From positions 136,155,990 to 136,219,989 of the forward strand of contig CP136067.1 of assembly GCA_032622095.1 (NCBI GenBank): a stretch of 64,000 bases of DNA. Direction: 5' to 3'. The DNA comes from Siphonodentalium dalli. Lineage: Eukaryota; Mollusca; Scaphopoda; Gadilida; Siphonodentaliidae. The translations under genes and the position numbers were made by a program. Shown piece after piece: positions 16,738 to 64,000 of this stretch. Under the pieces are notes generated by a model. That model searched no databases, was not told the DNA's origin, and saw only the letters and a program-made list of their open reading frames with translations. Numbering within the stretch: position 1 is the stretch's first letter; each line of letters begins with the position of its first letter.

Positions 16738-16740
16738 TAA

Positions 16741-26250: not shown

Positions 26251-26281
<31 letters not shown>

Positions 26282-29550: not shown

Positions 29551-29690
29551 CCACTGGCCAAGTGGTCCTGCTAATATGCTATGATGCTGGTGGTCCTGCT
29601 GAATTGCTATGATGCGGGTAGTGCAATTCATAGCAATTAAGCAGGACCCAACCGCACCATAGCACATTAGCAGGAACACTTGAACAGGGG
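29551..29690. mobile_element. Short hairpin element carrying minisatellite units, copy 2
   Basis: Duplicate of 14540-14679. Confidence 0.7.
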
Positions 29691-30361: not shown

Positions 30362-31296
30362 TTAAAGGTACTCAATCCGGTTCGATGTTCCCCATATAAT
30401 CAGATTCCAACAACATCATACATTTGTATTTAGAAAAGCTGCTTCAGTTACGGTATCAGAATTGATTAATTGCCCTAAAATAATGCTAACCACTGTCAAC
30501 TAAAGTATACAATTGCCTGACATATGTTATTTATCAACATGTTGTTCTACAAAATTTGGCCTTATTATCAACAGAAAGCCTCTTGATTTTAGAGTTATCC
30601 ATCTTCATCTGAAATTTGGTCCGAGACCGTGGGCCACTATTAATTCTTGATCGTGAAAAATAGTGTATTTCAAAAAATGATATCTAATAACTCTGAGCTT
30701 TGACAGGTGGGTTCCTCGACTCGTACCAAATATCTTTTACCCCCAAGTCCAAATAAATAGTAATGCGCGAGCGTTAATTCAGGGGGCCATTAATCGGATT
30801 ATGCATCTTTAAATTCAAATACAGTTTAAAGATGCATAATCCGATTAAGTGCCCCTCATTTACTATTTACATGTATATGGAATCGGGGGGGGGGGGTAAA
30901 ACATATTTTAATCAAGTCGAGGGACCCACCTACATGTATCAAAGCTCAGAGTTATTATATATCGATTTTTGAAATTTTAATATTTATCACCATCGATACT
31001 TAATAGTGGCCCAGAAAAATTTGACGAGCCGACGGTCTCAGACCAAATTGCGGATGAAGATGGATAACTCTAAAATGAAGAGGCTTTGTGTTGATAATAA
31101 GGCCAAACTTCGTCGAACAGCATGTTAATAAATATAACGTATCAGGCAATTTTATACTATACATGTAGTTGACAGTGGTTAGCATTATTTTTGGGCAATT
31201 AATCGATTCTGATAACTGAAGCAGCATTTCTAAAAAAAATGTTGTTGTTGGAATCTAATTATATGGGGACCATCGAATCTGATTGAGCACCTTTAA
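30362..31296. mobile_element. ~1-kb foldback element, copy 2
   Basis: Duplicate of 15351-16319 with a single copy of the 33-bp repeat and a shorter poly-G run near 30885. Confidence 0.8.
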
Positions 31297-31326
31297 TAGT
31301 TAGCTATATGAGTTATATACACATAA

Positions 31327-31714
31327 GGCGACACCAATTTTTAAGTCCGGTTTACGAACACCTCCTACAACTTTTTTTCCATTTCATGAAAAAAATTTTA
31401 ACTTTTTTGTCCCAATTTTTTTTACACACGTACTGATTTTCATGTGCTGTCGCATCCGGTTCTGCTTATAATCATTTGCAGATCCATATTTTCATGTATT
31501 TCATGACAAGAAATGTCTTGTTTGGTTCAGAATTTCACTCGAAAAAAAATTTTCTCACAATTTTTGTAAAATTTATGTCAAATTTCAAGATTTACTTGAT
31601 ATAAATTGGGGGGACAATTTTTTTGATTTTGATTTTTGTCCTTCCTGCAACTACTTGTTTTCTCCCCACATCAGCCCACATGTTCGTAAACCAGACTTAA
31701 AAATTGGTGTCGCC
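31327..31714. mobile_element. PIF/Harbinger-type MITE, copy 2
   Basis: Duplicate of 16350-16737 with small homopolymer differences. Confidence 0.75.
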
Positions 31715-33231
31715 TAATAGACATTTAAACTTTGAAAATTGTAGGTTTCCGGATGATAACTTCAGTTTGTGTGATCATATCTGAACCAAATGTGGTATGT
31801 AAGTTTATCAGACTAAAATACAGGTCAAGTTCGAATATGGGTCTGCTCCGCCCATTTTTGCGAGAGTTATGGCCCTTTTTCGACTTAGAATTGTGTTAAT
31901 TTCTGGTTTCCGCATCATAATTTTAGTTTGTGTGATCAAATCTGAATCAAATTTGGTATGATAGTTTATTATCCACCATTTCATGGGACACTGGTTGGAT
32001 TGTTCTGAAATGTAGTATCGGATTTAGGGGTCCTTAATATATTTTTCAGACAAGCTGATGCCCCAATGAAGCCACATTTGCTGAAATAGTATCCAAAACA
32101 TCAACATATCAAGAGCCATTTGACTGAATTAGATAAAAATATATCACTTCGGTCTGTTTAAGCTGGAAAATACTCAAAATTTGTATAATTTTCTGCGATT
32201 ATATCTGCATACTAGCCTTTTTGCTGAATCGTGAATGCCGGTTATATTGCCGTGTGAAATCCTAGTACCAGATAACATTGGGTATGTATATAGCATACCA
32301 CCTGAAAATGGATTGAATATCACATACCAAAGCGGGGTGGGGGTGTGTGTGACACCCCCTTGATCATAGTCTATATTCTACAGGGTATGTTAACTGTTTC
32401 GAGTTGGTGCAATTAATGTGATTGTTTAATCTCTACCATCTGAAATCTATTTATAGCATATTTTGCTATCTGAAAAATTGCTACTGATATAAAAAAGGTT
32501 AAAGCTGGTGTGTCTCTTTCCCGATGTTCTGTTTACATGTACATTTGGGGGTTTATGAGTCAAATAATAACAGGCAACATGTCCTTCTAACACTAAGAAA
32601 TAATGTGTTATTATGAACCAGGACAAAATATGACTATTTCTGGAGCATTACAGCACATTATTACAAATCTAAATTTGTAAGCAGTAAGATAATGACAGGA
32701 AACATGTCCTCAGACTAAGAAATAATTTTTTGGTATGTATTTCACATCACAGCTCATGTGTATACTCACATTAGTTTATGTCATTCAAAGGGAGAAACCC
32801 ATTTAGAAAGTTTAAATGAGACAAAACTACATCACTGTAGATGTAGTTGCAAGGTACTTTTGTGTCCACCGGTATGTCATGTACCGGTATACATTGCAAC
32901 TACATGTACATATAACTTGCCTAACATACCATATACATGTATGAAGAGGGAATATGCAAGTGTTTTTTAATCAAAATTTTAACCCAACTCTTGTTGTCAG
33001 TAAGTTTTAACCCATGCAGTTTAATGAGTTTATATATTTATATATTACATGTGTTTCTATACATGTATTTTATCTTTAGTTAGTTTGTTGTCCTTGAATA
33101 AACTTGTATTGCTGCACAATCAGATTCCTTAATGTTCTACTATACTAAAACAACTCCATTGATAACAATACCCCTGCATCCCATCAAAATCTACTTCATT
33201 GCCATCCTCATCATTTCACTTTGGTATCCCC

Positions 33232-33986
33232 ACCCAGATGTACCTTGGTGTTATTCACCCAGGTGTTCCTTGATGTTTCCTACCCATGCGTACCTTGGTT
33301 TTTCCCACCCAGTTGTACCTTGGTGTTTCTTACCCAGGTGTACCTTGGTGTTTTCTTACCCAGGTGTACCTTGGTGTTTTCCTGCCCAGGTGTACCTTGG
33401 GGTTTCCTTACCTGGGTGTACCTTGGGGTTTTCTAACTCAGGTGTATCTCAATGGGAAATCCACCTGGGTAAGAAAACACCAAGGTACACCGGCGTAAGA
33501 AAACACCAAGGTACACCTGGGTTGGAAACATCAAGGTACACCTGGGTGGGGAACACCCAGGTAGGAAACATCAGGGTACACCTGGGTGAATAACACCAAG
33601 GTACACCTGGGTGGGAAACACCCAGGTATGAGACATCAGGGTACACCTGGGTGAATAACACCTGGGTACACCTCGGTGGGAAACACCCAGGTAGGAAACA
33701 CCAGGGTACACCTGGGTGAATAACACCAAGGTAACCTGGGTGGGAAACACCCAGGTAGGAAACATCAGGATACACCTGGGTAAATAACACCTAGGTACAC
33801 CTCGGTGGGAAACACCCAGGTAGGAAACACCAGGGTACACCTGGGTGAATAACACCCAAGGTAACCTGGGTGGGAAACACCCAGGTAGGAAACACCAGGG
33901 TACACCTGGGTGGGAAACACCCATCTATGGTACACCTGGTGTGGTCACCTGTGTAATTACACCCAGGTTTATCCATACCAGGGTTT
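33232..33986. repeat. Inverted minisatellite array, copy 2
   Basis: Duplicate of 18256-19010; one substitution noticed (TTTTACTGCC versus TTTTCCTGCC near 33381). Confidence 0.92.
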
Positions 33987-34116
33987 TTATCCAGTTTCAG
34001 GTGGGTAAATCATGGTAAAACCCAGGTTTCGCGGGGTCTTGATGGTTGGTGGATGTCTTGGTAGATTTTTTCCCTGGGTTTCGGCCCAAAAAACCTGGGT
34101 GGATTTACCCAGGTAC

Positions 34117-34641
34117 ATTTTTATATGGGAAACGCCGTATAGGTGTGATATCTGTCCGGCAGAATTCAGTCAAAGTGGTAACCTAAATCAACATAAGAGG
34201 AGCCACACGGGTGAAAATCGATATCAGTGTGATTTGTGTCAGAAGAAGTTCAGCCACCAGCATACTCTGATTCAACACAAGAGGATCCACACGGGAGAAA
34301 CGCCGCATAACTGTGATATTTGTCAGAAACATTTCAGTGAACGTTCTTTCCTAAATGAACACAAGGGGTCCACACGGGACAAAAGACATTTTATTGTGAT
34401 ATTTGCCAGAAGTATTATCGTTACCATTCTAGCCTATCCAGACACAAGAGGATCCACATGGGAGAAACGCCTCATAAGTGTGATATTTGTCAGAAGTATT
34501 TCCGTTACCATTCTAGCCTATCCATACACAAGATGGCCCATACGCGCGGGAGAAAAGCTACACACATGTGATATTTCCAGAAGATATTCGCGGACCGCAG
34601 TCACCTAATTCAACACAAAATGATACACACGACAGAAGTGG
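34117..34641 (+). pseudogene. C2H2 zinc-finger pseudogene, copy 2
   Basis: Duplicate of 19141-19665 with the same three frameshifts, which therefore predate the duplication. Confidence 0.8.
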
Positions 34642-34730
34642 GACACTTGTGATATTCGTTACAAGGATTTCTTTTTATATTTTATGCATTTCATTTGTTA
34701 AATAAAACATAATATATTTTAAATCCAGTG

Positions 34731-35186
34731 GTTTTTGATGGTAGGTAGCGCATGGGTGTGTTCCGGTCTCTCATGTGGCTTGAATCCATTGGGGATCATA
34801 ATGGAATTAATGGTCTTAGGACTATTTTCTTATGCTATCCCCGATGGTTTTTGGTCACCTGTTAGTGCCGGACAACTCCTTTACAGTATCATACCCTGTA
34901 TAAACGCCATACTCATGCTGGGCATTGGTAAACTGCGGAAGTGGTAATGTACCATAATAATGGTGCATTACATCCTTCCGCAGGTGACCTACATGTATGT
35001 TCAGTAAAAAATCTAATAATTTGATATTCTACATCTTTACTGTTGATATGTTAATCTGTTACTTGTTACATGTATCTCACATATATATCATGTATTCCTG
35101 TTTAATTTTATCTATACGTGTAGGTTGTCCTATACCAATATGTTTAAAGACCATTAAAACGTATCTTATCTTATCTTATCTTATCT
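34731..35186 (+). mobile_element. LINE 3'-UTR fragment ending in (TTATC)n, copy 2
   Basis: Duplicate of 19755-20211 with one substitution near 35013. Confidence 0.6.
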
Positions 35187-35407
35187 AGCCCAAAACCACA
35201 ACTTGATGGGGAACACGGGGTAACTTACGTTTTACTTGCTACTCACCATACAATTAATTATTTCGCCATCCGTCTCAAGTCCTGGTAAAACAATTTAATA
35301 AATGCATGTATAGGTTAACTCTGTTTTCGCATTTCCTCCATGTAGGTCGCGACGCGATCGATTTGTCTTCGAATTTCGTTGGTTCACATTTAATATGTTT
35401 ATATATT

Positions 35408-36488
35408 ATATCTCGCGTGACTTTCTCGCATCTGATTGGCTGCACACTGCTGTACTATTTTACGATAGTACCCAGTTGGATTCCAACATGCCTACTATTC
35501 TTTTTCTATTTATAGTAACAAACTCGTTTACCGCATATCCGGTTGTTGTAATATCGGTATATCATTAGATTTATTGGTGAATTGTAATGATCTTACAAAT
35601 GTCCGATCATAGCTATCCAATGTATTTAATAGTGTGTCCGTTTAGTTGGCAAGCGACCAGTCCTAATTTTGTAATGCCAGTAGACGTTATTTATAACTTC
35701 CTTTCCGTTCGCCGAAATGTCTTTGCTAATGACGTATTAATAGAAATAAATGTAAAAATCATGGTGATATGTTGTTAGATGTAACTAATAGCAATAGTTA
35801 TGGTCCACTGCTAATACACTGCCATCGTCAAAAGAATGTCGTAAATTGTAAAATCTGAGACCAATTTCCAAAGTTCACGGTAAATAAATATGTGACAAAA
35901 TCTATCTCTCTAACCCACCTATATTAGATATCACGTGACTTTCTCGCCTTCTGATTGGATGCACAATGCTATACTATAATCCTATCGTACCCCTATATGA
36001 TTCATACTCGCCTATACTATTCTTTTTATATTTATAGTAACAGACACATTTCGCGCAATCCGATTTCCACCTGGAGACACGACCAATCTAAAACTATACA
36101 TTTTACGATACGATATTGGGATATCATTAGACTTATTGGTGAATTTTAATGATCTTACACAATTAGGTCCGATCATAGTTATCCAATGAATTTAAAAGTT
36201 TTTCCGTTTAGTTGGAAATCGGACAGTTCATATTTTGTAATGTCAGTGAACGTTAGTTATAACTTCCGTTTTCATCGAACATAAAAAGTTAACTTCTGAA
36301 ATTTCGCCAATATGTCTTTGCTAATGATGTGTTTACAGTAATAAACGCATGAACCATGCCGAGATGCTGTTAGATGTAACAAATACCATAGATATGCTCC
36401 CATGTGATCGTCAACAGATTGCCGTAAACTGTAAAATCTGAGACAAGTTAAAAAAAATCACGGTAAATAAAAATGTGACGAAATCAGA
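35408..36488. repeat. Diverged ~540-bp local tandem duplication, copy 2
   Basis: Duplicate of 20432-21512. Confidence 0.75.
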
Positions 36489-36543
36489 AATACAAATGGT
36501 GTGATAATTGACACCAATGTTCGATATAATATAATAAATAATG

Positions 36544-36638
36544 CATGTCTTGTTGTTGACTATACCAAAATAGTGGCCTATTCGTGGACTATTCCTCCTC
36601 GGTGACCACTATTTTGGCATAGTCAACGACAAGACATG
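36544..36638. repeat. 95-bp hairpin, copy 2
   Basis: Duplicate of 21568-21662. Confidence 0.7.
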
Positions 36639-37858
36639 TATTATCTATATATACTATCCCAAGTTATATCTAGTATTATACCAAGGGTAACTGTCCTATT
36701 CCGAAGAAAAGTCTTGATACAATTATTGCTTTTCAAAGTGAATTTCCCCCCAAAATTTGTCGGAAATGCTCTTCAAAATAAGGTGCATATGATTATTGTG
36801 TCATATAATATGTTCTGATTCTGCAATGATGAAGGCGATATCTTACATGGAAGAGTCTTCATGGGTGGAACCAGAAGTGCATTGCAGTTGTCTGCAAAAC
36901 GTACGTCTGGACAATAAACTCACAGCTCAACTTCGTCGATAACTTATTCAATAGTGAGATTTCGCACGTCAAACAACTTGATATTTTAAGGGCGTTGTCA
37001 ACCCATTTCCCCTAAATTTGATGGAGTTAAAATAAAGGAGTCCATTCAATTATATTAGTAATCACAGAAACCAATCCCATGTTATGATGGATTATCTTAG
37101 AAATCCAAATGTTTTAAAAATATTCTTTTCTAACGGAAATCCAACAAACACAAAAATCAATTTCTAAAAAAACATATGGAAATGTGTACAGAACATTGTG
37201 AAGAATGATGAACAATAAACACATTCCGGAGGGCTATGTGTAATTTTCGCTGACATATGTGGCACCTGGTCAGATCCACACTTACCTATAACACATGTTT
37301 ATCTACCGCTCACTACCTTTATTGACTACATAAAGCCTGCATAATAAACGTTACGTTTATTGCGTCAGTGCAGCTTTATTAGATCAGCGTGGCTTTAATA
37401 GGTTAGTACTACTTTCATGGCGTAATTGTATATGTAAATTGCGCAGTAACTACTACTAACTAGGGACATCAACCGGCCTAAATGACGTCATTGCGATTTT
37501 AGAACCTTTTTTTCGTCCATAATTCACTGTTATTGATACAATATTAGTAAAAGGGATACTAATTAGTTTACTTGACCTCATAAATATGGGTATATCCTGT
37601 CTACCCGGCAGGCAGAGATTAACGACTTGGCCGGCGGAGATTATAGTCCATATCAAAACACCTGCGGTCCAGTGTTGTCACAGTCCATAACTGTTGGTGG
37701 TGAATAACGTTTAATAGCGTGAGCCACATTCAGTTTATTTATTTTACACGTTTTATTATTTGTTTGTAAAGATGTATTATGAATTATTATCAGTGTTTTA
37801 AGTAGAGTTCACTACTGAATATATATACTGTTAGATTCCCTGGTCTGACATAAACACG

Positions 37859-39419
37859 ATGGCAAGCACACAGGTGAACGTAAATTATATTCCAAATACT
37901 AGAGGTGGAAAGTATCTGGTATATGATGACTACAAATTCTCCGTTAAATCAAGGAGAAATGATCGAATTCATTGGCGATGTTGTAAGAAAGACTGCCGTG
38001 CAACCACCAACACTGAGAACGATATGGTGATATCCAACAGCGGCAACCATAACCACGAACCTGATTTCAACCAAGTAGCAGCAGATTCCTGGATTGCAGA
38101 CATCAAAAAGCTTGTCAAGACAAGTAACAAGCCAGTAACAACGCTATACCAGGAAGAAATAGGAAGTATGTACTGAGTAAATTTAATTTCGCATTCTCAT
38201 TAATCTGGCAACGCTCTTTATATTAGTATTCAGAAAGAAAACTAAGCAAGTAATAACTAAAGTAAAACTGGTGTAATGTTATATTATATATATTATAATT
38301 ATTATTAAAGAATAGAGAATACTAAGCAAGTAATAACTCTATTAATGTTTATAATTTATAACATATTACAGCGTCAAAACAGCATTGTATCATGCCAGAG
38401 CCGAAAACCAGCCAAAGTTACCAATTCATCGTTCAGGAGTCGACCTTCCTGATGTATACAAAACAACAGCCAACAACCACAACTTCCTACTAGCCGATGA
38501 CGGATAGACTGAAAAGATTCTGATATTCGCGACCAGAGAAAATCTAGAAAATTTAGCTGTTGCCGGAACGATCTTCTGTGATGGAACGTTTGAGAAAAGC
38601 CCAACGATCTTCTTTCAACTGTACACGATACACGCATTCGTCGCCGGAAAGATGTGCCCTTTGGTGTATGGCTTACTTCCCAACAAGACCCAACACACAT
38701 ACCAACGCTTCTTCAATCTGGTGAAAGAAAGGGCAGCAGAACTCGACATCACCATCAGCCCAAGTGGAATTTTCACAGATTATGAGACAGCTGCCCAAAA
38801 CGCCCTGGCAGCTACATTTCCGTCAGCTACAATGAAAGGATGCCTATTCCATTACGGCCAAGCAGTGCTGAAGAATGTTAAGAAATGCCACCTACAGCAG
38901 CTATACGAAGACACTGAAGGCAACGACCAAAAGACCCTGATAAGAAGAGCTCTAGCCCTCCCTATGGTTCCTGTCGAGATGGTTGGTGATGCCTGGTTCG
39001 AAGCGCTGGACGATTACCCTGCGACAAGCAACACAGGTCTCGATGAAAACGTCACCAAGTTCACGGATTACATCACCGAGTTCTGGGTGGAAGGGAGCCA
39101 TGGCCGCCAGCTATGGAATCACCACGACATAATTGGTCCAAGAACGACAAATCATGTGGAAGGATGGCACCGAAAACTGCAGTTGGTGTTATCTTGCTCA
39201 CACCCGAACATCTTCAGGTTGATAGATTTCCCGAAGAAAGAGCAAGCTTACCAGGAAGCAACCGTCATCCAATTGAGAGCGGGTGGAAGGATTGGCCCAT
39301 GCAAGATGCGATATCGCAAAGTTGACAATTCCATCAGACATTTCAAGAGAGTTTTCGGCGCAGGCGAAATAGATATTCTCGAATACATGGATTCAGTATC
39401 AAATAGTATCAAACATTAA
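37859..39419 (+). pseudogene. FLYWCH + MULE transposase gene, one premature stop, copy 2
   Basis: Duplicate of 22883-24443: exon 1 37859-38165, exon 2 38383-39419. The same TAG is present (38505-38507), so the lesion is older than the 15-kb duplication. One coding difference from copy 1 was noticed, Glu to Asp in AA(E/D)SWIADIKK, plus a silent change in exon 1. Confidence 0.8.
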
Positions 39420-39951
39420 TGTGCTATAATTCATGTTATGTTATATTGATAGTATTTGTTATATATATCTTGAGTATTTAATAAATTTGTTGAAATATAT
39501 CACATGTGCATTTCTTCGTTCATAATGCAACTTCCGGTGTCCGTTCAGTGGAGGGATTAATATGTGTGGATAGGGCGAATATCGGCCTTTCGTTAGACAC
39601 CAAAATGAGCCCTCTGCGCGCTGTATTCCTGGAGTTTTGAATTTTCCAAAAACCCCAATTATCCTCATCGTCCGGCCGCTCACCGCCGTCGAAATTAGCC
39701 ATCGCCACCAATTTCCAGTAACAATTATGATAAAAACTATAGTCGGCAGCTCTGTGATGTTGAGGATTATCACACCTGCCCCAACACCTACCCGAAACAA
39801 TAGCCGCCTGGTGAACAGGACGACCCCATAAATATAATGCCGTCATCGAAGTAATGGACGACAAACTTAGATAAATGACAGAATTCCCCCAACAAAAGGC
39901 AAGTTTTACGCGATGGATAAATAAAATATGTAGCTATACTAATGCTGTCGC

Positions 39952-40400
39952 TTAAAGGTACGGTTGGCCTTGGCGGTGGGTATCCTGTGAAAATATTTAC
40001 ACCCGTCAAAAACCGCCACAAACAGAAAGAACATAAAAATGTAGACATACTTTGTCCGTATACAAATAAGACAAAGGCATAACAAGTTACTTTTCTGGTG
40101 TTTGTTTATATTATGATGGTAAACACAAAGAGCGTTCTTTGTTGGTGAATTCCTGATATGGAACTAATAAAGAGCGTTTATGCCATTTGTGTGTGATTAG
40201 CCAGTAGCATTGTGCTGTCTTCTGTAACACAAACAGGCTCTTGCTTAGGTAAAATATAGTAGGTCTTTGTGATAACATGCTGTTTACGCGATGGTCATGG
40301 TATATATGAACGAAACTGTATGCGTTTTAATGTTTTTCTGTTTACGGTGATTGGAACAAATATGAATATTTTCGACAACTAAGGCCTCACGTGCCTTTAA
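39952..40400. mobile_element. Short inverted-repeat element (family A), duplication copy 2
   Basis: Duplicate of 24976-25424. Confidence 0.65.
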
Positions 40401-40491
40401 ACGGTTTATGTCCCCTCGGATTTGGCATCTATTGGACTCGACAGAGCCTCGCCCAATAGATGCTCAACCCCCCCTCACGTACATAAACCGT
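40401..40491. repeat. Hairpin adjoining the family-A element, copy 2
   Basis: As 25425-25518 but 3 bp shorter. Confidence 0.65.
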
Positions 40492-41372
40492 GTAAGCGAC
40501 GGCACTAGCTACATTTATTTATTTATTTATAGTTTAGGCTGGGCCATGCTTCATCATGGAATAAACCACATTATGATATTATAATCCAACATCAGCGCGT
40601 GTGCTCGATGATTTTCACTGCTGCAGACATGAACCGTACTCACAATGTGATATTGAAAATGAGAGTCTACCATGCAGGAACCATCTATATAGATACACTT
40701 GTGAATTGTGAAAAAGTTACCCAGCTTAATACAATTGCATGTACATGGATATAGCAACCATGTATTTGTTTGTTTCAATAAAATTACCGACTCAAGAATG
40801 CATGTACTAACATTTATACGGCCAAATAGTTGAATCACTTCGCAATATTGAACAATAATTTTCCTTCAGTCACGTTTCAGCCCGACCTCATTGATTATTT
40901 TATTGGTGTAAACATATTTTTATTTCCAAATCCAAACAGATAGCATAATATACAGATGCCACATATAAGTGTTAATATATGGAAACGAGGAGCAGACAAC
41001 ATGCCCGATGGCTTATATGAAGTATTCTCCTCGTTGGCTACATGCCCGTCCCACAATAAGTGAGGGAGGTGGCTACTTGCTCCGTCCACAATAAGTGAGG
41101 GAGGGGTATAGTTCAGACGGGAAGTGTTGGAAATAAAGGGTTTTGGAGAATGGGAGATAAATATCAGAATTTGAGTTAGGGATGGAAAAGAGGAAAAAGA
41201 TTGTGTTAGGGATGGCAGGAGGCAGAGAGAGAGAGAGAGAGAGAGAGGGGGGAGAGATAGAGAGAGAGAGAGAGAGAGGGAGACAAGACGGGGACATATG
41301 AAGTCGTGAGATGGTGACACTGTGGGTTGTTTTCAATGACTGTTGTTGCGTGATTAAAAGCTCGTATTATCA

Positions 41373-41548
41373 GGGGGGGGGGTCAGGAAAATAATTACCG
41401 ATACAAGGTGGACATTTTGTGTTTTTCAGTTTTGGGGACCCACCACCTCGGGAGCGTAAGTTTTTTCCACCCACGTCTGAGACACCCACCGGGACCGTAA
41501 GTATTTTCCCCCCAGGTCTGGGACACCCACCCCCAAAATTGATGAAAA
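41373..41548 (+). repeat. Dispersed G-run repeat (family G), copy 2
   Basis: Duplicate of 26402-26580 with a shorter G-run. Confidence 0.55.
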
Positions 41549-42847
41549 TCGTGTAAATTCTACTTAATAATGTGTTGTTGGCAGGGTAAGGGTATCTCAT
41601 TGTGTCTGCACCGGAACTGAGAGAACGCTGATTAATTACACCCGCACAAAATAAACAAACAAAGCACATGGCTGAAAAATATGCCAACAAAACCAGTGAC
41701 AAAACCTTTAAAAGCCCAAATAGTTATGGTTATAAAGGTAAAATACAACTTTAACAGGATAGATGTGTCCCTTATTAGCAATAGGTTAAAATATGTGCAT
41801 GTGTATTGTGTAAAGTAAAAACACCATCAATTTGATTAAATAAACACAGTTCCAGTCCTCTCCATGTGGGAACTCACTGGTGAGCAATGAGGAGCTCCCC
41901 TTAAAATCATTCTAGGCGAGTGGCGAGTAGCTCTCCTACAAAATGTCGAGGCGAGTAGTATCCCAGCAGGAGATGCCGAAGGCATCACCCGAAGGCCTGA
42001 TGGGGGCGAGTACGGGAGGGGGTCTCCCCCCGTAAAATTTTGAAAATTAGATGCTCTGAGATTTAATCTGGAGCCTTTTAATGCTCCAATGCGTTTTTAT
42101 TTCTCTCATCCAAGTTAATACATGTATAGCATAAGGATATTGAGATATATAATTATATAAACAATAGATATATATAAATATTATACAATAGATATGTACA
42201 TATGGTTCCGGGTCGATGGCATTTTGAAATTCGATGAATGTATTCCGAGTTTTATTCTGACATCGCTACTATAGCTTATTGTCGCCAAGAGTAATGACGG
42301 CGCAATCTCGAGTGAAACCTTGTTGATTGGAGTAAACTATTTAATCGCAACGCTGACATAAAAGGTTGATATCTTCACAGTCACACATGTGTGTTTAGAT
42401 TTAGGTACAAATAATAGGTTACTACATGTAGGTCGTCAATTTTAGTATTTATACAATCGATGATTGCCATATCGTTCACTAGTGACTATCGTATAATTGA
42501 TTCCGGGAACCATACATATATACTAATATACCAACATAAAAGCCAAGTATTAATATCATAACGTATGACTATTTAAATAATCAATTATAACTGATATAAA
42601 TATACTTGAATCCTCATTGCGCTTGTTGGCAGGTATATATTTACTTTAATTCTTGGTTCACATCCATTCATCAATGTGGATGCTCAGCTAGCTAAATTCA
42701 GCAGAAAGTTTGAGACTTTCTGTCAAAATCCCGCATCTGACCATCACCATAGATGAATGAATGTTAATCCGTGTCGTCTGTTCGAATCTACACATATATC
42801 ATAGCAGATCAAAATTAGACAGATTCGTGACGAGAAATTTCGATGCA

Positions 42848-45590
42848 TTAATTGTGATCTGAGAATACGTTCGAGATGATCCGAACGAAAGAACAAATTC
42901 TGCGTAGTAATATGGGATTCTTCATTTTGAAAATTTCATTTATCGCGGTAGCATTTATTCGTCTACGATATTTTGGTTGTAAAAAGCGTTTTCTTACATC
43001 CGTAAAGAACTCACATTCCAATAAATAATGAAATTAATCACCAATGTATTTGTGACACTTTGGGCATATTATGTCAGCGATATCAATATTATTCCATCGC
43101 CCCGTCTCTATAGGTAGCTGGTGGTTACATGTACGGAATCTGCATAATGTTAACCGGTTTCTGGTATCAAGAATGCTCAAGTAATCTTCAAAATTGATAT
43201 CTTGTTTGAACATTTTGTATATAATTTCCCTACTGCCCGAAGCCTCTAGATAATTTTTCCATTTATTACGGAATCTACAAATAAGGTTGCACTCAATGTA
43301 TGAGAGTAATCGATCAATACAGAGAATTTTACCTATATCCATTAAGTGGATGTGACCACATTCTGTTAAAGTTTGCTTAACTTTGTTTATCCACGTGAAA
43401 TTAGAGGATGAGATATTACTGAGTTTTAGCGCCGACATATATAATATTTTACAATATCTATTACAATTCATATTTACTACTTTCAACCAGTACTTCACCA
43501 CGCGCATGTTTATTAATATATCAATTGGCATACGGCCGCTCTCTTCATACAACATATAATTGCATGTGGATGGTTTTAGCCGTAAAATAAACTTACAAAA
43601 TTTTCTATGTATATTCTCAATTATATCATTATTTCCTGTACCCCAAATTTCAGATCCATAAGCAAGTATGGGTACAACTTGTGCATCAAATAAATCAAAT
43701 TGGTCCTTTACCGACAGGCAGTGTGCTCTTAATTTGGTGATTATAGCGTACATTGCTCTAGTGGCTTTATCTACAAGCACCTTCTTTGCCTCCGTATATG
43801 AACCAGATTTAGTATGTAGTATTCCCAGGTAATTGAATTTTTTAACAACTTCAATTTCCCTCCCATTATAGAATATTTTCTCATTTTTGGAAGGCTACGC
43901 TTTGATATCAACATTATTTTAGTTTTATCGATATTAACTGTTAATTTCCAAATTTAACAGCACTTATAGAATGAATACAAAGCAGTTTGAAATTTTGCAG
44001 GTGTTTCTGCCATTATTACAGTATCATCTGCATACAAAATTACAAAAAAGTTTCATATAGATGTTCAAATTGTTTTCAATATCATCCGACAATTTTGACA
44101 GACCAATAACTCCTGTATTTGTCAGATAAGATTCCAAGTCGTTTACGTACAGTGCAAAGAGTATTGGTGAAAGATTCGCACCTTGTCGGACACCAGATAA
44201 ACATGGAAAGTAATTGGAGTGCTCATTTCCTAGTTGAACTTTGGACTTAATGTTCGAGTACATATTGCAAATGACTTTAAATATTTTTCCATTAACACCG
44301 TTAGATAAAAGTTTGTGCCATAGTCCCTGTCTCCATACTTTATCAAATGCTTTTTCAAAACCAATGAATGCACAATATAAGCTTCTGTTATATATATCTA
44401 CAGGTATGTACAGTAAAAGTTATCAAAGGGAGAAAGATCAATGATTCATATGTACCTAGTAATTTCTGTCAGCATGTGAAGAACAAAGATATTATCAACT
44501 GTGGAATATCCTTTTCTGAAACCGGATTGATTTTCTTTCATTACTTCATGTTCTTCTAGATATGTGTTGATCCTATTTGATAATATTTTGGTAAATAATT
44601 TCCCAAAACAACTGAGTAAAGTAATTGGTTTATAGTGTTTAGGGTAACTTGAATCTCCTTTATTTTTATATATGGGAATAATGGTTCCAATTCCCCAGGA
44701 ATCAGGTATACACCCAGAATCCAAGACTAGATAATTTTTTTTACAGTATATGTCTTTAAGTGTATCAGCCGAGGCTTTTATAAATTCATTTAATATTCCG
44801 TCATCTCCAGGTGATTTATTATTACTGAGACTATATAGCGATCGCGATTTTTATTTCCTCGTCTGTAATAGGTTTGTTAAGTGTGTCATTCCCATGCGTA
44901 GTTGTATCATCAGTAGCCAATTTGGGATCGTTTGTGTAGGTTATGGCATTTATTTCTCGGAAATAATTCTCAAGATCTTTTATTTGTAATAAACTGTCTG
45001 TTAGTTTTCTTTTCTTATTCAATATAGACAAAAAATTTCTCGAGTCGCCCTTTTTAAGTTTAGTCATTTCACCAGATATCTTTTCTCTGTGATATCTCAT
45101 GGCATTATCCATTGTAATCTTGTATAGTTTAGCTGTTTCACGCGCTACGTTTCTAGTCAAATTATTACTTTTAGACCTGTTGTTTCGTTCTGCCTTTCGG
45201 TATTCCTTCCTGGTTAGTTTACACGCTGGGTTAAACCAATGCTTGTTAGATGTTCTATATCTATTTTTCTTTATGTTACTTACTTGTCCCAGTCCAAATG
45301 TTTTATCTGCAGAATTATGAATTACATGTGTTAATTTTGATACAACATCGTTTATCTCTGTACAGCTAGGATAATCAGTTTCGTGTTTATAGATGGTCTG
45401 TCGTATAGCATCGATATCATCTGGGTCTAAATTATATACAAATTCAATATATTTTGTGCGATCCCATCTACGCCTAGGTCGGTTTTTATGCGAGTCATAA
45501 TTTCTTCGTGCTTAATTGAATCGATTAATATCTCAGATATCCAATCAGTGAACAACACGTTATTTTGTGACTTAAGACACTGTAGTCATG
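42848..45590 (-). pseudogene. Non-LTR retrotransposon (LINE) ORF2, decayed
   Basis: Reading from the right: linker with DRTKYIEFVYNLDPDDID (~45460), RT fingers IPIYKNKGDSSYPKHYKPIT (~44670) and QSGFRKGYSTVDNI (~44510), FEKAFDKVWR (~44340) where the expected catalytic Asp reads Gly, LSGVRQGANLSPILFALYVN (~44180), YADD (44023-44034) in another frame, then the thumb (LYSFYKC onward) and VDKATRAMYAI at 43780. The C-terminal knuckle CPKCHKYIGD is followed by an in-frame TAA (43034-43036) and then FHYLLECEFF, continuing to a stop at 42848-42850. The usual next residue would be Glu, so the TAA is a single-base lesion. There are several frameshifts, and the endonuclease domain is missing or unreadable. 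The right duplication breakpoint falls at the TAA. Clade not assigned. Confidence 0.8.
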
Positions 45591-50510: not shown

Positions 50511-52321
50511 GGATGTACATGTAGCAGTTATTTGTATTTAACAAATAGAATGCAAGCAGTAGATATATATGGTACTCTATCCAAATTTGAACGTATCACC
50601 TGTGGTGTCCATCAAGGATAAATCTTAGGCCCCCTTCTTTTCCTACTCTATGTGAACGATGCTAGCCAGGCTGTGGATTGTCACCTCCTTCTATATGCGG
50701 ATGACTCTGCCCTTTTGGTTTCAGGTTGTGATGTCCGCGCTATTGAGCAGAGGCTCAGTTCAGAAATGAATAAACTGAAATTATGGTTGGTTGACAACAA
50801 ATTGTCCTTACATTTAGGGAAAACAGAATCAATTCTGTTTGGGTCTGGAAAGAAACTTGTAAAACACTCTGAACTGAGGGTCTGCTGCGATGGCGTTGAC
50901 ATCGCACCAACTAAATCTGTTAAATATCTGGGGGTGTTCCTCGATCAGAGGCTAAATGGTGAAATGATGGCAGAGCATGTTCTAAGTAAGGTAAATGCAA
51001 AACTGAAATTTTTGTACAGAAAAGCAAACTATCTGAATGAAAAATGCAGAAAACTTCTAATTAATGCTCTTATTCAATGTCATTTTGACTACTCAAGTGG
51101 TTTTTGGTTCTCTAGTCTGACAGTAAAAACCAAAAAGCGTCTTCAAGAATCTCAAAACAGACTTGTCAGATTTATCATGAAACTAGATCGCATGACTCAT
51201 ATTGGTTATAATGAATTTAAACATGTTAAATGGCTTCCAGTGAGTGATAGGGTAGACTTCAGAAAAATACTGATGGTACTAAAAATCTCGGAAAAGAAAG
51301 CTCCAGCATATCTAGATAATAATTTTATATTAGCTAGTACTCATTGTACATATGTAACTCGATCAGGGACCCTGAAATACTCATTACCCTCTGTAAAATC
51401 CAAGGGCATCCACAGTTTCTATTATACAGGAGCGAAACTGTGGAATGGTCTAGATAAAGTATACCATACTCGTGCCCCTTTTGATCTCAAACACTGGAAA
51501 ATTTGCATTAAACAACACCTACTAGAGAAATTGATGAACAGAGAAGAAAATCCATTTGCCTTTTACTAGGAACAATCTATTTTATCATCTTTTAACTAGA
51601 ATTTCCTCAATACAGCAGTTCAAGTTATATGGTAATGTACGATGACAGTATTTGGCCAGTTGCATATATTGTTACTGCTGCCTGTATTTCGGGTTTCCAT
51701 CTTTCGGTCATGGACAGACCAGTCCAAAGCCGGCCATACATGGCAGTGGTGCGTATATGCAGGTGGCGAAGGGCTGTTGAAGTTACATTACTTGCGTATT
51801 GACTTATTTTATTAGCTTTTCCTCTCCATATAAGTCTCGTTCTGAAATGGCTTTTATTTAATTTATATTCTAAATACTTTTATACATTGTCTTCCGAAGT
51901 TTCGAACTTCACTCACTGCCCATGTACCGAAAGCCACCAGGGACCGCAATGGAATTAAGTTCTCATTTAGAGAACTTTTTGCGTTATCCCTGATGGTCTC
52001 AGGTCACATGAGTATTTCTATTTTTATACAGATTTCTGCCACATAATTTACCTATATTCTGACGGCAACCTCTATAAAATAAAATGAATTAATTTTTGAG
52101 AAAATTGATATATCCTCTTACGGTATATATCAATTATTTACACAGTCTGAACTCTAACTGTCTCATCAACATATAACATATTTATATTTAATATAAACTA
52201 TTATAATTATAATATGTATATATTGTTGTGTATTATATTGATTCAACTTGTAAACATACCCATAATATGTATTCATGTAAACCTGAACTATCAAAATAAA
52301 ATCTAATCTAATCTAATCTAA
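50511..52321 (+). pseudogene. LINE reverse-transcriptase 3' half with 3' UTR and (AATCT)n tail
   Basis: Starts in the RT palm: SYLYLTNRMQAVDIYG, then ITCGVHQG followed by an in-frame TAA (50619-50621) where Ser is usual, then ILGPLLFLLYVND. Clean frame from there to 51569: LLLYADDSALL (catalytic YADD), VKYLGVFLDQRLN, KLLINALIQCHFDYSSGFW and the thumb/C-terminus ending NREENPFAFY. The 3' UTR (51570-52300) contains a stem CCACCAGGGA/TCCCTGATGG also found at 19785-19870. The element ends in TCTAATCTAATCTAAT repeats (52301-52321), typical of CR1/L2-like tails. Upstream domains are missing in this orientation but appear inverted at 50100-50505. Confidence 0.8.
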
Positions 52322-57450: not shown

Positions 57451-58231
57451 TGTGTTTACACATTAGCCGGCTAAGATCCTATCCGCTGTAGTCGGTTACT
57501 GATAACAATAGAGTGTTTATACTTCACCGGATAAGAGTTGAAGCTATCCGGCGTTGCATCTATCCGGTTTTCATCTTCTGGACAACATGATTTAATACAA
57601 GCATATGGTTGTCGTATGGATTGTAATTCGCTCTGCAGATGTTTACCTGGTATCAAACCATCATGGACAGAGACGTGGTTAGAGGGTCTCCGTTGTGGGG
57701 GGGGGGGGGTGCCCACTTTGGGAATTCCAACTGCAACTGCACCCCCATTAAATCAGGCCAAACACAATTTTTTTCGGAATTTCATTGGTACCACCGCCCC
57801 CTTGCACCTCAACTCCCCATTACAGGACTTGCTGAACGGCTCTTGTTGCTTGTTGTCACTATAGTCAGACGGATGAAAAGAACCATGACACTATATACCC
57901 GGTATCAGAACATTTATATAATTGAACCTGACAATTGCATAAATCCTAACATTTAGTGATCTAATTGCAGACAAGTTGACACGGCCAAGAGCGAGATACC
58001 AGGAAATACCGGTCATGGTTCGGCCCAGTGTGAGAACATTTCGAAATCTGAACAAGAAAATCGCAAAATCCTAGCATCTGGACCGGCCTCAACCTTTCCT
58101 AGTGTTGTTGGAAATTTCAAACCTGACACCCCCCACTTAGGTTGGAATATTTCAAACTGATGACCATTTCAGTCCATATTTTTGATAAAATGTAGGAAAA
58201 TATTGTTCTCTTAAATTAACTAGCAGTGTTA
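57451..58231. other. Gene-free interval before the Helitron array
   Basis: A small repeat of TTTACACATTAGCCGGCTAAG / TTATACTTCACCGGATAAG type at 57451-57560 and a G-run at 57698-57708. No gene recognised. Confidence 0.4.
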
Positions 58232-58755
58232 TCTATCTATACTATAATCTCATATATATTTTGAAGACCTCTGTCTGTCTGTTTGTCTGTTTGTCTGTTT
58301 GTCTGTAATTTATACATCTACGATTCTCTACCGATCGGGACGAAACTTGGTACGTGTGTGTAGTTTGACCAGGCGGTGGACGTTGTCGTATTGGCGAGCC
58401 CGTGTGGCGCCCGTGCAGCGCATGCGCAGACGAGATCTCGGAAACGGGTGGAGCTATCGACTTGAAATTTGCTACGTGAATGTATCTTGCCCCGGATACG
58501 AATTTTATCGGATCGCCGAGCCCGTACGACGCCAGCTTCGCGCATGCGCAGACCAGATCTCGGAAACGGGTGGAGCTATCGACTTGAAATTTGCTATGTG
58601 AATGTATCTTGCCCCGGATACGAATTTTATCGGGTCGCCGATCCCGTGCGACGCCAGCTTCACGCGTGTGCAGACCAGATCTCGGAAACGGGTAGAGCTA
58701 TCGACTTGAAACTTGGTTTTTGAATAGCCCGGACAACGTCGGGCTCATCGGCTAG
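58232..58755 (+). mobile_element. Non-autonomous Helitron A (array unit 1)
   Basis: Starts TCTATCTATACTATAATCTC after an A. It ends with a hairpin GCCCGGACAACGTCGGGC, then TCATCGG and the CTAG terminus followed by T. That is the rolling-circle Helitron signature (5' TC, 3' hairpin plus CTRR, insertion between A and T). Inside are a TGTTTGTC microsatellite and three 122-bp tandem units beginning AGATCTCGGAAACGGGTGGA. No Rep/helicase is encoded. Its head differs from the other array members. Confidence 0.75.
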
Positions 58756-59960
58756 TCTATCTATCTATACTATATATTTTGAGACTTCGTATATATGTGT
58801 GTGTGTGTGTGTGTACTTCATAGAATCCAAAACGCGTGTAAAGATTGAGCTCAAACTTCCTATGTAAGTGTCAAATCGCACCGACACGACCGTGGTCAAG
58901 GTTTAGAGAAGCTCAGAGCACCCGTTCTCCAATCTCAAATCACCGCAAAGGCACGGCGGGGGTTAATCAAGTGATTATTTAGTGAGCGTTTGTTTTTGAC
59001 GCATCTCTATAAAGAGCGTCTGTTTGCCATTCAACGTTATTTGCATCTGCAGAGAGATATACGGAACATACATTAAATTTAAAAAACATTTGTTTCTGAC
59101 CAACCCTGCGAGCACGGATGGCGCGCTTTGTTTTTACAGTATATAGTTATATACCGAAATCATCCCAGATAATCACGAATATAGCATCAGATTTCTCCCC
59201 AGATATATCGTTATAAAGCTACTGGAATCTGCCAATCTACGGGAAATTCCAGGGAATGCCGATTGAGCTCAAACTTGCTACCCACGTTAAGTGTCATATA
59301 TATGAGTGTGTCCTTTATAGACTCGAACCGATTGAGCTCAAACTTGCTAAATAAGAAAATAGCCCCCAAGCCGTAAATATCAACAACAACGATATTGCTA
59401 CCTACGAGGAGCAACGTTATTAGCATCTGCAGAATTATGCAGAGAGAAAGTGCTTTCCTATTTTTAGAACGCAACACATGTTTACGTCGCGTTGGTGATT
59501 GAGGTTCACAACGGGGTTAATTGACTGTCCGCTCTTTGCGACGATGAGGTTCACGGCGGGGACTATTGACCAACACTCACAATTTCGTCTTTTGCATCAG
59601 ATGCCAACACCTCGACCGATCGGGACGAAACTTGGTACGTGAGTGTAGTTTGACCAGGTGGTCGTCGCTGTCGTATTGGCGAGCCCGTATTGGCATGCGC
59701 AGACGAGATATCGGAAACGGGTGGAGCTATCGACTTGAAATTTGGTATGTGAATGTATCTTGCGCCGGGTACACATTTTATCGGGTCGCCGAGCCCGTGC
59801 GACGCCAGCTTCGCGCATGCGCAGACCAGATCTCGGAAACGGGTGGAGCTACCGGGTACAAATTTTTCTTATTGAAACGCGTGGAGCTAAAAATTAAAAA
59901 TATATATATAAAAAAATGTCATGTTTCGGACAAGCCGCCGGTGGCGGGCTAACCTGCTAG
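58756..59960 (+). mobile_element. Non-autonomous Helitron B (array unit 2, subtype 1)
   Basis: Starts TCTATCTATCTATACTATAT directly after unit 1. It contains a (GT)n tract, AATCCAAAACGCGTGTAAAG, the subtype-1 core TTGACGCATCTCTATAAAGA and two AGATCTCGGAAACGGG-type 122-bp units. It ends with hairpin GCCGCCGGTGGCGGGC, TAACCTG and CTAG (59957-59960). Confidence 0.75.
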
Positions 59961-61121
59961 TCTATACTATATATTTTGAGACTTCGTATATATGTGTGTG
60001 TGTGTGTGTGTACTTCATAGAATCCAAAACGCGTATACAGATTGAGCTCAAACTTCCTATGTAAGTGTCAAATCGCACCGACACGACCGTGGTCGTGGTT
60101 TAGAAAAGCTCAGAGCACCCGTTCTCCAATCTCAAATCACCGCAAAGGCACGGCGTGGGTTAATCAAGTGATTATTTAATGAGCGTTTGTTTTTGACGCA
60201 TCTCTATAAAGAGCGTCTGTTTGCCATTCAACGTTATTTGCATCTGCAGAGAGATAAACGGAACATACATTAAATTTAAAAAACATTTGTTTCTGACCAA
60301 CCCTGCGAGCACGGATGGCGCGCTTTGTTTTTACAGTATATAGTTATATACCGAAATCATCCCAGATAATCACGAATATAGCATCAGATGTCTCCCCAGA
60401 TATACCGTTATAAAGCTAATGGAATCTGCCAATCTACGGGAAATTCCAGGGAATGCCGATTGAGCTCAAACTTGCTACCCACGGGAAGTGTCATATATAT
60501 GAGTGTGTCCTTTATAGACTCGAACCGATTGAGCTCAAACTTGCTAAATAAGAAAATAGCCCCCAAGCCGTAAATATCAACAACAACGATATTACTAAAT
60601 ACACGTTTTCGGCAATGTGAGAGTTTTCGGGGAGCCGTGATGCCAACAACAACGACCCGAAGCCCTGAATGCCAACAACAGATTCAATGCAATGTTATCT
60701 ATTATGCAGAGAGACGACATTACGACGGGTACGGCAGACTCAAAATATTATGCAGACAGATTTCCCGACGGGAAGCGTTTGTTTTAAATTCAATGCAATG
60801 TTATCGTAGAGAGATTTCACGAAACAAAGAATGCGTTGTCTGTCGTTCCTAGGAAGGGGGGATTTCTACGGGTAAATTTTTCCGCCAGAAACAAAAAAAT
60901 TAATTAAAACAATTTACAATTTAATTAAAACAATATAAAATTAAAAAAAATTAACAATAAAAAAACAATTCAGAAACAAAATATATTGAATTTAAAAAAC
61001 ATTAAATTCATATTCAAAAATAAAAAACCAAAATAAATAAAAACAAAATAATTACAAAAATGTCATGTTTCTGAAACAAAGCCATGGGACGAATGCCGCC
61101 AGTGGCGGGCTAACCTGCTAG
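59961..61121 (+). mobile_element. Non-autonomous Helitron C (array unit 3, subtype 1)
   Basis: Starts TCTATACTATATATTTTGAG immediately after CTAG of unit 2. Subtype-1 core as in B, then an A-rich stretch of AATTAAAACAATTTA-type repeats instead of the 122-bp units. Ends GCCGCCAGTGGCGGGC, TAACCTG, CTAG. Confidence 0.75.
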
Positions 61122-62016
61122 TCTATCTATACTATATATTTTGAGACTTCGTATATATGTGTGTATGTGTGTGTGTGTGTACTTCATAGAATCAAAAACG
61201 CGTGTACAGATTGAGATCAAATTTCGTATGTAAGTGTAAAATACCACCGACACCGCCGTAGTCGTGTTTTCGAGAAGCTCTGAGCACCCTTTATCCACTC
61301 CCAAATCACCGCAAAGGCACGGTGGGGGGGGGGGGGGGGGGGGGGTTAAGGCAAAAACGCTCTTTATCTATACCTTATACGGAGGTTTTAACAATTAACG
61401 CTCTTTATTGCAATGGACGTGGCTAAACGATACCCCATGCGTCCGATGCGGATTCCAATGGACGTGGCTAAACGACTGACCCCATGCGTCCGAAATACGG
61501 ATGCGGACGAAATGCAACTAAAAAGTCAGAATTGATCTAAGTGCTCGAAATATTATGCAGAGGGATTTCACGACGGGATTAATTGACTGTCCGCTCTGAA
61601 GTTTAGGACGGGGAGGACGGGTACCATGAATTAACTCATTGAAAAACAAAGAATGCGTTATCTCGCAAACGGGTGGAGCTATCGACTTGAAATTTGCTAT
61701 GTGAATGTATCTTGCCCCGGATACAAAATTTATCGGGTCGCCGAGTCCGTGCGACGCCAGCTTCGCGCATGCGCAGACGAGATCTCGGAAACCGGTGGAG
61801 CTATCGACTTGAAATTTGGTATGTGAATGTATCTTGTCCCGGGTACGAATTTTATCGGGTCGCCGAGCCCGTGCGACGCAAGCTTCGCGCATGCGCAGAC
61901 CAGATCTCGGAAACGGGTGGAGCTATCGACTTGAAATTTGGTTAAATTAAAAAAATGTCATGTTTCTGAAACAAAGCCATGAGACGAATGCCGCCAGTGG
62001 CGGGCTAACCTGCTAG
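61122..62016 (+). mobile_element. Non-autonomous Helitron D (array unit 4, subtype 2)
   Basis: Head as in the other units, then a G-run and the subtype-2 core with two CGCTCTTTAT motifs and a duplicated AATGGACGTGGCTAAACGA. It then has 122-bp units spaced 61780/61902. Ends with the same GCCGCCAGTGGCGGGC hairpin and CTAG at 62013-62016. Confidence 0.75.
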
Positions 62017-63086
62017 TCTTCTATCTATACTATATATTTTGAGACTTCGTATATATGTGTGTGTGTGTGTACTTCATAGAATCCAAAACGCGTGTACAGA
62101 TTGAGATCAAATTTCGTATGTAAGTGTAAAATCCCATCGACACCGGCGTAGTCGCGTTTTCGAGAAGCTCTGATCACCCTTTATCCACTCCCAAATCACA
62201 GCAAAGGCACGACGGGGGTTAATCAAGTGATTATTTAATGAGCGTTTGTTTTTGACGCATCTCTATAAAGAGCGTCTGTTTCCCATTCAACGTTATTCGC
62301 ATCTGCAGAGTTATACGGGAACGCAAACGTTATCGCTCGAAATTTATTTCCTGCGAGCACGGATGGCGCGCTTTGTTTTTACAGTATATACCTTCGGTAT
62401 ATACCGAAATCATCCCAGATAATCACGAATATAGCATCAGATTTCTCCCCAGATATACCGTTATAAAGCTACTGGAATCTGCCAATCTACGGGAAATTCC
62501 AGGGAATGCCGATTGAGCTCAAACTTGCTACCTACGGGAAGTGTCATATATATGAGTGTGTCCTTTATAGACTCTAACCTATTGAGCTCAAACTTGCTAA
62601 ATAAGAAATTAGCCCACAAGCCGTAAATATCAACAACAACGATATTACTAAATACTCGTTTTCGGCAATGTGAGAGTTTTCGGGGAGCCGTGATGCCAAC
62701 AACAACGACCAGAAGACAGATTTCCCGACGGGAAGCGTTTGTTTTAAATTCAATGCAATGTTATCGTAGAGAGATTTCACGAAACAAAGAATGCGTTGTC
62801 TGTCGTTCATAGGAAGGGGGGGGGGGATTTCTACGGGTAAATTTTTCCGCCAGAAACAAAAAAGTTTATTAAAACAATTTACAATTTAATTAAAACAATT
62901 TAAAATTAAAAAAAATTAACAATAAAAAAACAATTCAGAAACAAAATATATTAAATTTAAAAAACATTAAATTCATATTCCAAAATAAAAAACAAAAATA
63001 AATAAAAACAAAATAATTACAAAAATGTCATGTTTCTGAAACAAAGCCATGGGACGAATGCCGCCAGTGGCGGGCTAACCTGCTAG
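62017..63086 (+). mobile_element. Non-autonomous Helitron E (array unit 5, subtype 1)
   Basis: Starts TCTTCTATCTATACTATATA. Subtype-1 core and A-rich 3' part closely matching unit C. Ends GCCGCCAGTGGCGGGC, TAACCTG, CTAG (63083-63086). Confidence 0.75.
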
Positions 63087-63860
63087 TACTATATATTTTG
63101 AGACTTCGTATATATGTGTGTGTGTGTGTACTTCATAGAATACAAAACGCGTGTACAGATTGAGATCAAATTTCGTATGTAAGTGTAAAATCCCACCGAC
63201 ACCGCCGTAGTCGTGTTTTCGAGAAGCTCTGAGCACCCTTTATCCACTCCCAAATCACCGCAAAGGCACGGCGGTGGTTAAGGCAAGAACGCTCTTTATC
63301 TATACCTTATACGGAGGTTTTAACAAGTAACGCTCTTTATTGCAATGGACGTGGCTAAACGATACCCCATGCGTCCGATGCGGATTCCAATGGACGTGGC
63401 TAAACGACTGACCCCATGCGTCCGAAATACGGATGCGGACGAAATGCAACTAAAAAGGCAGAATTGATCTAAGAGCTCGAAATATTATGCAGAGGGATTT
63501 CACGACGGGATTAATTGACTGTCCGCTCTGAAGTTTAGGACGGGGAGGACGGGTACCATGAATTAACTCATTGAAAAACATAGAATGCGTTATCTCGCAA
63601 ACGGGTGGAGCTATCGACTTGAAATTTGCTATGTGAATGTATCTTGCCCCGGATACAAATTTTATCGGGTGGCCGAGTCCGTGCGATGCCAGCTTCGCGC
63701 ATGCGCAGACGAGATCTCGGAAACCGGTGGTGCTAACGACTTGAAATTTGGTATGTGAATGTATCTTGCCCCGGGTACGAATTTTATCGGGTCGCCGAGC
63801 CCGTGCGACGCAAGCTTCGCGCATGCGCAGACCAGATCTCGGAAACGGGTGGAGCTATCG
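63087..63860 (+). mobile_element. Non-autonomous Helitron F (array unit 6, subtype 2, 3'-less)
   Basis: Starts TACTATATATTTTGAGACTT (the TCTA prefix is lost). Core closely matches unit D, including the doubled CGCTCTTTAT and 122-bp units. It has no 3' hairpin or CTAG: the text GGTGGAGCTATCG runs straight into the next head at 63861. Confidence 0.7.
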
Positions 63861-64000
63861 TACTATATATTTTGAGACTTCGTATATGTGTGTGTGTGTA
63901 CTTCATAGAATCCAAAACGCGTGTACAGATTGAGCTCAAACTTCCTATGTAAGTGTCAAATCCCACCGACACGACCGTGGTCGCGGTTTAGAAAAGCTCA
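63861..64000 (+). mobile_element. Non-autonomous Helitron G (array unit 7, cut by window end)
   Basis: Head TACTATATATTTTGAGACTT, (GT)n, AATCCAAAACGCGTGTACAG and ATTGAGCTCAAACTTCC. The ACCGTGGTCGCGGTTTAGAA wording matches subtype 1 (B, C). Confidence 0.7.

Follow-up and report, generated by a model that had tools for sequence, protein, structure and literature searches.

A head-to-tail array of seven unlike, mosaic Helitron units in the scaphopod Siphonodentalium dalli

Canonical Helitrons begin with TC, end with CTRR, carry a GC hairpin some 10-12 bases ahead of the 3' end and insert between A and T without duplicating their target. Here we describe a tandem array of such elements at the right-hand end of a stretch of 64,000 nucleotides from the scaphopod mollusc Siphonodentalium dalli (GenBank assembly GCA_032622095.1, contig CP136067.1, positions 136,155,990 to 136,219,989 of the forward strand), which we call the window throughout, and we examine by which route the array may have been built. 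A preliminary description of the window, made from its letters alone, had already proposed a series of head-to-tail non-autonomous Helitrons at this place.

Tandem Helitrons have been reported from bats, Drosophila, rice, maize, other plants and a fungus (PMC5876387, PMC5148889, PMC2267711, PMC12628747), and these sources credit the bat and plant cases to Pritham and Feschotte 2007, Thomas 2014 and Xiong 2016. Whether such arrays arise by read-through, repeated insertion or recombination is, as presented in three of them, debated case by case (PMC5148889, PMC2267711, PMC12628747). The ends can be compared with those of Helraiser, a reconstructed bat Helitron described as having TC/CTAG ends, a hairpin 11 bases from its end and AT targets; it is reported to prefer AT sites in AT-rich surroundings, its AT targeting not being absolute (PMC4778049).

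The array of S. dalli resembles the bat and plant examples in that its elements are consecutive and lie in one orientation, CTAG being joined to TC in bats and maize according to the sources named, but it differs from them in comprising several unlike, mosaic and apparently non-autonomous units whose TCTA spacers vary. Many of the plant arrays, as characterized in PMC12628747, possess multiple 5' ends and a single 3' end, unlike the present one. For an adjacent maize pair of unlike content, PMC2267711 concludes consecutive insertion, listing both AT and GT orders and leaving the order open; a G/T junction between unlike elements, interpreted in that way, is what our array shares with it, whereas the maize pair consists of two units with captured genes and ours of seven related units with no recognised gene. 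The three tandem Helitrons of Metarhizium acridum, for which repeated insertion at the 5' end or rolling-circle replication was offered (PMC5148889), present the same two explanations, although that case is fungal, limited to three copies and described with non-canonical termini. The oyster Cg_HINE elements (PMC11136912; PMC7492417) are non-autonomous rolling-circle elements with short internal tandem repeats, which in our units measure 122 bases; they are called Helentrons in PMC7492417, whereas five of the units described here have canonical TC/CTAG ends.

Tandem Helitrons are already known, and the present array is a well-preserved new example. In the few papers covered by our search, which lay mostly outside the subscription literature, we noticed no tandem Helitrons whose junctions keep a TCTA record of the present kind, and a literature search for TCTATACTA together with Helitron yielded a single paper, which concerns maize transgenes. 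Because most ends are intact while units and junctions vary, the array would let the routes of formation be distinguished using the host genome, and the array may show a step of a transposon turning into a satellite.

Units, ends and junctions of the array

The array extends from 58232 to the right edge of the window (64000) and comprises seven head-to-tail units in 5.8 kb, all of them on the plus strand. The shared head, the single orientation and the ends with hairpin and CTAG leave it as a real head-to-tail Helitron array. Unit A (58232..58755; 524 bases) has two TCTA, a variant head, a run of TCTG/TTTG, a 122-base repeat present in 2.4 copies, a hairpin of its own and CTAG. Unit B (58756..59960; 1205 bases) begins with three TCTA and a head of type 1, followed by the left body alpha, a right half with the 122-base repeat, a variant of the tail and CTAG. 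Unit C (59961..61121; 1161 bases) shares with B the type 1 head and alpha, carries one TCTA, and continues into an A-rich right half, R1, and the tail t2 with its CTAG. A head of type 2 preceded by two TCTA opens unit D (61122..62016; 895 bases), in which beta, the left body, is followed by 122-base repeats and then by the tail t2 and CTAG, while unit E (62017..63086; 1070 bases) combines TCT TCTA TCTA and a type 2 head with alpha, R1, t2 and CTAG. Unit F (63087..63860; 774 bases) has no TCTA, a type 2 head, beta and 122-base repeats, its 3' end being missing, and unit G (63861..64000; at least 140 bases), again with no TCTA and with a head of type 1, is cut by the window edge. The lengths of A to E range therefore from 524 to 1205 bases. 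No further copies of the array were found in the remaining 58 kb of the window at an E value of 0.01 with the low-complexity filter on.

The heads identify the units most clearly. A 16-base core, TACTATATATTTTGAG, is present exactly in B to G (58768, 59965, 61130, 62028, 63087 and 63861, all on the plus strand), and when up to two mismatches are allowed these same six sites are the only ones in the window (shuffle mean 0.15, largest 1; six were reached in none of 100 shuffles). By itself CTAGTCTA is weak evidence, with three occurrences against a chance mean of 0.85 and three reached in one of 100 shuffles. The head of unit A, at 58232, is related to the others but longer, matching that of D at 70% over 71 bases, and the heads of B to G form two types that differ by 9 to 12.5%, type 1 being that of B, C and G and type 2 that of D, E and F. 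A near-head on the minus strand at 5409-5419 presented no additional likeness by eye.

The exact 5' end is ambiguous between TCTATACTATA and TCTATCTATAC, the latter likewise starting with TC. The canonical 5' TC is seen in five of the seven units (A to E), while F and G start with TACTATA, without TC. At the 5' edge of the array (58231..58232) host GTTA is followed by TC, so that the base preceding unit A is A (A^T); the fit to an AT target is seen at this edge only, the 3' edge lying beyond the window. Five of the six units whose end falls inside the window finish in CTAG (at 58755, 59960, 61121, 62016 and 63086 for A to E), and in each of them a short GC hairpin precedes it, with a predicted stem that stops 10 bases (A and B) or 13 bases (C, D and E) from the end. 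Folding of these hairpins is only mildly better than that of shuffled sequences (z between -0.3 and -1.9) and is not significant by itself. Examination of the 3' end of F revealed neither CTAG nor a comparable hairpin: in the alignment with D the last 88 bases of D are absent, and F passes straight into the head of G.

Each of the six junctions reads differently. Placing the 5' end at TCTATACTATA, extra bases of TCTA repeat stand between units at A/B (CTAG then (TCTA)3 TACTATA; 8 bases), C/D (CTAG then (TCTA)2 TACTATA; 4 bases) and D/E (CTAG then TCT (TCTA)2 TACTATA; 7 bases), and B/C (CTAG then TCTA TACTATA) is spacerless, CTAG being followed exactly by TC. The E/F junction consists of CTAG then TACTATA, without TCTA, and F/G of GCTATCG then TACTATA, without an intact end. 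The total of TCT(A) is 11 over the seven units, four above one each.

Much of the preliminary description withstands this examination, including the five units ending in a GC hairpin and CTAG and the seventh unit truncated by the window edge, whereas some of its points need amending. A single head type had been assigned to A to F; the exact core is indeed common to B to G, with A related, but A has a longer variant and the others divide into two types. Perfect CTAG/TCTA joins, claimed at five junctions, are present at three (A/B, B/C and C/D), since D/E reads CTAG followed by TCTTCTA and E/F lacks TCTA; and abutment without a spacer applies, with the 5' end at TCTATACTATA, to B/C only.

Open reading frames of at least 80 codons that overlap the array number 17, the longest (151 codons) lying antisense over unit A. 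Ten of the 17 were scanned against Pfam and none contained a domain, there being no transposase (RepHel) among them, from which the units look non-autonomous. These frames, together with the ends, the hairpins, the A at the 5' edge and the uniform orientation, support the original assignment to head-to-tail non-autonomous Helitrons. As regards the inverted repeats that would point to Helentrons or Helitron2, A and D each contain a single inverted pair, which lies within the 122-base repeats and joins no termini, and among the five longest of the 17 and 14 inverted pairs of C and E, respectively, none links the head with the last 100 bases. No match to Rfam was obtained at the gathering score. 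Exact patterns of the head, the core of the 122-base repeat and the tail had no match in IMG/VR, and the repeat core had none in GTDB genomes either. A junction 15-mer is present in 18 IMG/VR stretches, several of them copies of one sequence, and was taken as a chance match because visual inspection of the 35 bases preceding it and the 30 following it showed the tail or head of the array in none of these.

Mosaic composition and divergence between units

Comparison of the units region by region indicates that they are mosaics in which relatedness changes along their length. In the heads, where B to G were compared and that of A was excluded, type 1 members differ at 5 of 188 positions (B/C), 5 of 140 (B/G) and 3 of 140 (C/G), and the type 2 heads of D, E and F differ pairwise by 3 to 7 of 184 (D/F, 3 of 184), the differences between types ranging from 13 of 140 to 23 of 184, the latter for C and E. 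Alpha, common to B, C and E, differs between B and C at 7 of 434 positions; outside a replaced block (alignment columns 93-128) the private changes amount to 9 in E, 4 in B and 2 in C, and when the block is included C/E differ by 7.1% and B/E by 7.6%. Beta, common to D and F, has 5 differences in 322, and R1, common to C and E, 7 in 314. In the stretch of the 122-base repeat, carried by A, B, D and F, the pair D/F differs at 3 of 164 positions and the pairs A/B, A/D, A/F, B/D and B/F at 11 to 14 of 164. The tails, compared over 46 or 63 bases starting at AATGTCATGTTTC, are the same in C and E (0/63), with one change in D and 4 of 46 with a gap in B; over the last 75 bases, B is 29-30% different from C, D and E, and D 6.7% from C and E. 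Beyond the short repeats, B and C have in common their first 637 bases, at 97.8%, and otherwise only the tail, and C and D share only head, tail and a stretch of 35 bases. The closest long pair is D/F, with 16 differences in 774 bases, and every unit differs from all the others.

Units B (about 59065-59105) and C (about 60260-60300) each contain a block of some 40 bases with ACATTAAATTTAAAAAACATT, which is similar to R1, the A-rich right half present in C and E, and occupies the site where E has about 30 different bases. This block looks like the product of internal template switching or conversion.

The preliminary description had set the alignment of neighbouring against non-neighbouring units as a test, and its outcome is that neighbours are as a rule no closer to each other than non-neighbours, the left halves of B and C making the exception. 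Among heads of the same type, neighbours differ by 2.7% (B/C), 3.8% (D/E) and 3.3% (E/F), and non-neighbours by 3.6% (B/G), 2.1% (C/G) and 1.6% (D/F). In the stretch of the 122-base repeat the neighbours A and B are the most unlike (8.5%) and the non-neighbours D and F the most alike (1.8%), and in the tail the non-neighbours C and E are identical while the neighbours C/D and D/E are one base apart. The similarity also runs through junctions: the block formed by the 3' half of C, the junction and D (60754..61931, plus strand) is collinear with that formed by the 3' half of E, the junction and F (62714..63864, plus strand), at 94.8% with gaps, and the divergence is equal on either side of the junction (7/368 and 16/774; Fisher P = 1.0).

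A motif of 29 bases, modelled with a matrix derived from four of its occurrences in the array, has 21 sites in the array (58333-63956), all on the plus strand and at least one per unit. Two further sites listed outside the array, at 16801 and 31778, score 19.2 (23 listed in all), and 18 of the 21 array sites outscore both of them and the maxima of 20 shuffles. The motif could be a binding iteron, or merely the remains of decayed 122-base repeats.

Routes by which the cluster may have formed

The reading that we favour, with middling confidence, is that the cluster was built by repeated insertion, side by side, of separate and already mosaic non-autonomous members of one Helitron family. That most neighbours are unlike in body, length and tail is what would be expected of separate insertions; the canonical ends of A to E, the A ahead of the first unit and the consecutive insertion concluded for the maize pair (PMC2267711) are in line with it too. 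Each newcomer would enter an older copy either at an AT site on its 5' edge or within the TCTA repeat of its head, the array growing mainly toward its 5' side by means of a transposase presumably supplied from elsewhere. The site TCTA^TACTATA in the head of G would have received F, and that in the head of F would have received E, each newcomer taking TCTA from the older head. Because an insertion at this point leaves the older head as CTAG followed by TACTATA and joins the freed TCTA to the newcomer, F and G would be left without TCTA and E would have three, its own together with those split off from F and G. These predicted counts (F 0, G 0, E 3) are those observed if the TCT of E is regarded as a worn TCTA, an agreement that was noticed after the fact and is suggestive, not proof. 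F would have lost its 3' end later through a small deletion, for which a one-base overlap would be enough because CTAG and the last base of F both give G before TACTATA.

The surroundings of the proposed entry sites point weakly in the same direction. The A+T content of the 20 bases from the head start is 80% at seven of the eight positions tested, a level met by 15% of the 6283 AT sites elsewhere in the window, and 75% at the 5' edge of the array, a level met by 29% of those sites, which amounts to a weak bias overall. Insertion was one of the two routes named in the preliminary description, which placed it at the CTAG/T site; the route is the one we favour, but insertion at G^T departs from the usual AT target, to which exceptions exist (PMC4778049). 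The canonical alternative is entry at the A^T where an older copy begins on its 5' side, which PMC2267711 lists as one of two orders for the maize pair. The G/T junction at B/C fits such an A^T insertion ahead of an older copy as well as it fits a circle junction. Taken further, the head might be a self-renewing landing site, each insertion supplying the 5' edge with a new target, either TCTA^TACTATA or A^TCTATAC, with one-way growth and with TCTA counts recording the order G, F, E and then D to A; this extension we consider rather doubtful.

Several observations weigh against serial insertion. With 2, 3 and 2 TCTA, respectively, units A, B and D hold extra repeats that require slippage or a target bearing TCTA; in the left body the neighbours B and C have diverged less from one another (1.6%) than from E; F/G has no intact end; the unit types are known here from the array alone; and C-D and E-F are collinear through their junctions with equal divergence, as a single duplication would also give. 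The last point introduces the main and serious rival, although on balance we judge it somewhat unlikely, namely that within an existing tandem cluster, where B and C also share a 5' half, either template switching or unequal crossing over copied C-D locally into E-F, with later conversion of heads, the array behaving as a young satellite derived from Helitrons. The match running straight across the junction, the close pairs two units apart (D/F in head and beta, C/E in right half and tail) and the resemblance of C to a B-type 5' half fused to an E-type 3' half are all in keeping with it. However, the junctions supposedly copied are unlike, C/D having two TCTA and E/F none, and repeats of two units rarely slip; E has moreover a type 2 head where C has one of type 1, and even D and F, the closest long pair, differ by their 16 changes. 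Alternation as such, tried as a higher-order repeat, was rejected as not significant, being expected by chance in 4 of the 30 orders of these unit types (13%). Considered as a satellite, the array amounts to seven unlike units in 5.8 kb, and because G continues past the window edge this length is a lower bound. Serial insertion and the duplication of C-D may both have been active.

The other route named in the preliminary description, rolling-circle replication that misses the terminator, would have laid several units as a concatemer in one transposition. The junction between B and C is exactly CTAG then TC, as reported for Helraiser circles (PMC4778049), and the long stretch these two units share would suit such an origin, but the units of a concatemer are expected to be alike at birth, whereas B and C agree only in that first part and the tail, C and D in still less, and the number of TCTA varies among junctions. 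Given that units are mosaic and that neighbours are as a rule no closer than non-neighbours, a concatemer of a single element is disfavoured; read-through does not suit the whole array, its neighbours being unlike in body, length and tail, and we regard it as improbable, although it could still account for one pair, for example B and C, followed by replacement. Amplification driven by truncation, which PMC12628747 attributes to Xiong et al. as a proposal concerning plant centromeres, would produce many 5' ends and one 3' end. F and G, with two heads before the next possible terminator, recall this pattern, but five of the six units that finish inside the window (A to E) retain a 3' end with hairpin, which makes the proposal very improbable here. 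We give just as little credence to an assembly artefact fusing dispersed copies: a near-exact tandem duplication of 15 kb in the same window could be an assembly duplication, but the array has no identical units and six different junctions, and a misassembly would need a number of independent false joins, each placed precisely at the end of an element.

Other features of the window

The 15-kb duplication occupies 13055-28066 and 28065-43034, its copies being 99.8-99.9% identical in two pieces, and it may be either a true recent event or a duplication of the assembly. The two copies have matching long frames; in the first, which was the copy scanned, Pfam identified a MULE transposase domain and C2H2 zinc fingers. 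Diverged tandem repeats lie at the left edge of the window (1-402). The window-wide list holds 13 frames, eight of which were scanned against Pfam; the C-type lectin, MULE transposase, C2H2 zinc-finger and reverse-transcriptase domains among them, together with the character of the mobile elements, would suggest an animal, perhaps a marine invertebrate. A frame on the minus strand at 1395-2321 has a C-type lectin domain and a borderline PAN domain, and a reverse-transcriptase fragment (Pfam RVT_1), perhaps of a LINE, is located at 50622-51569.

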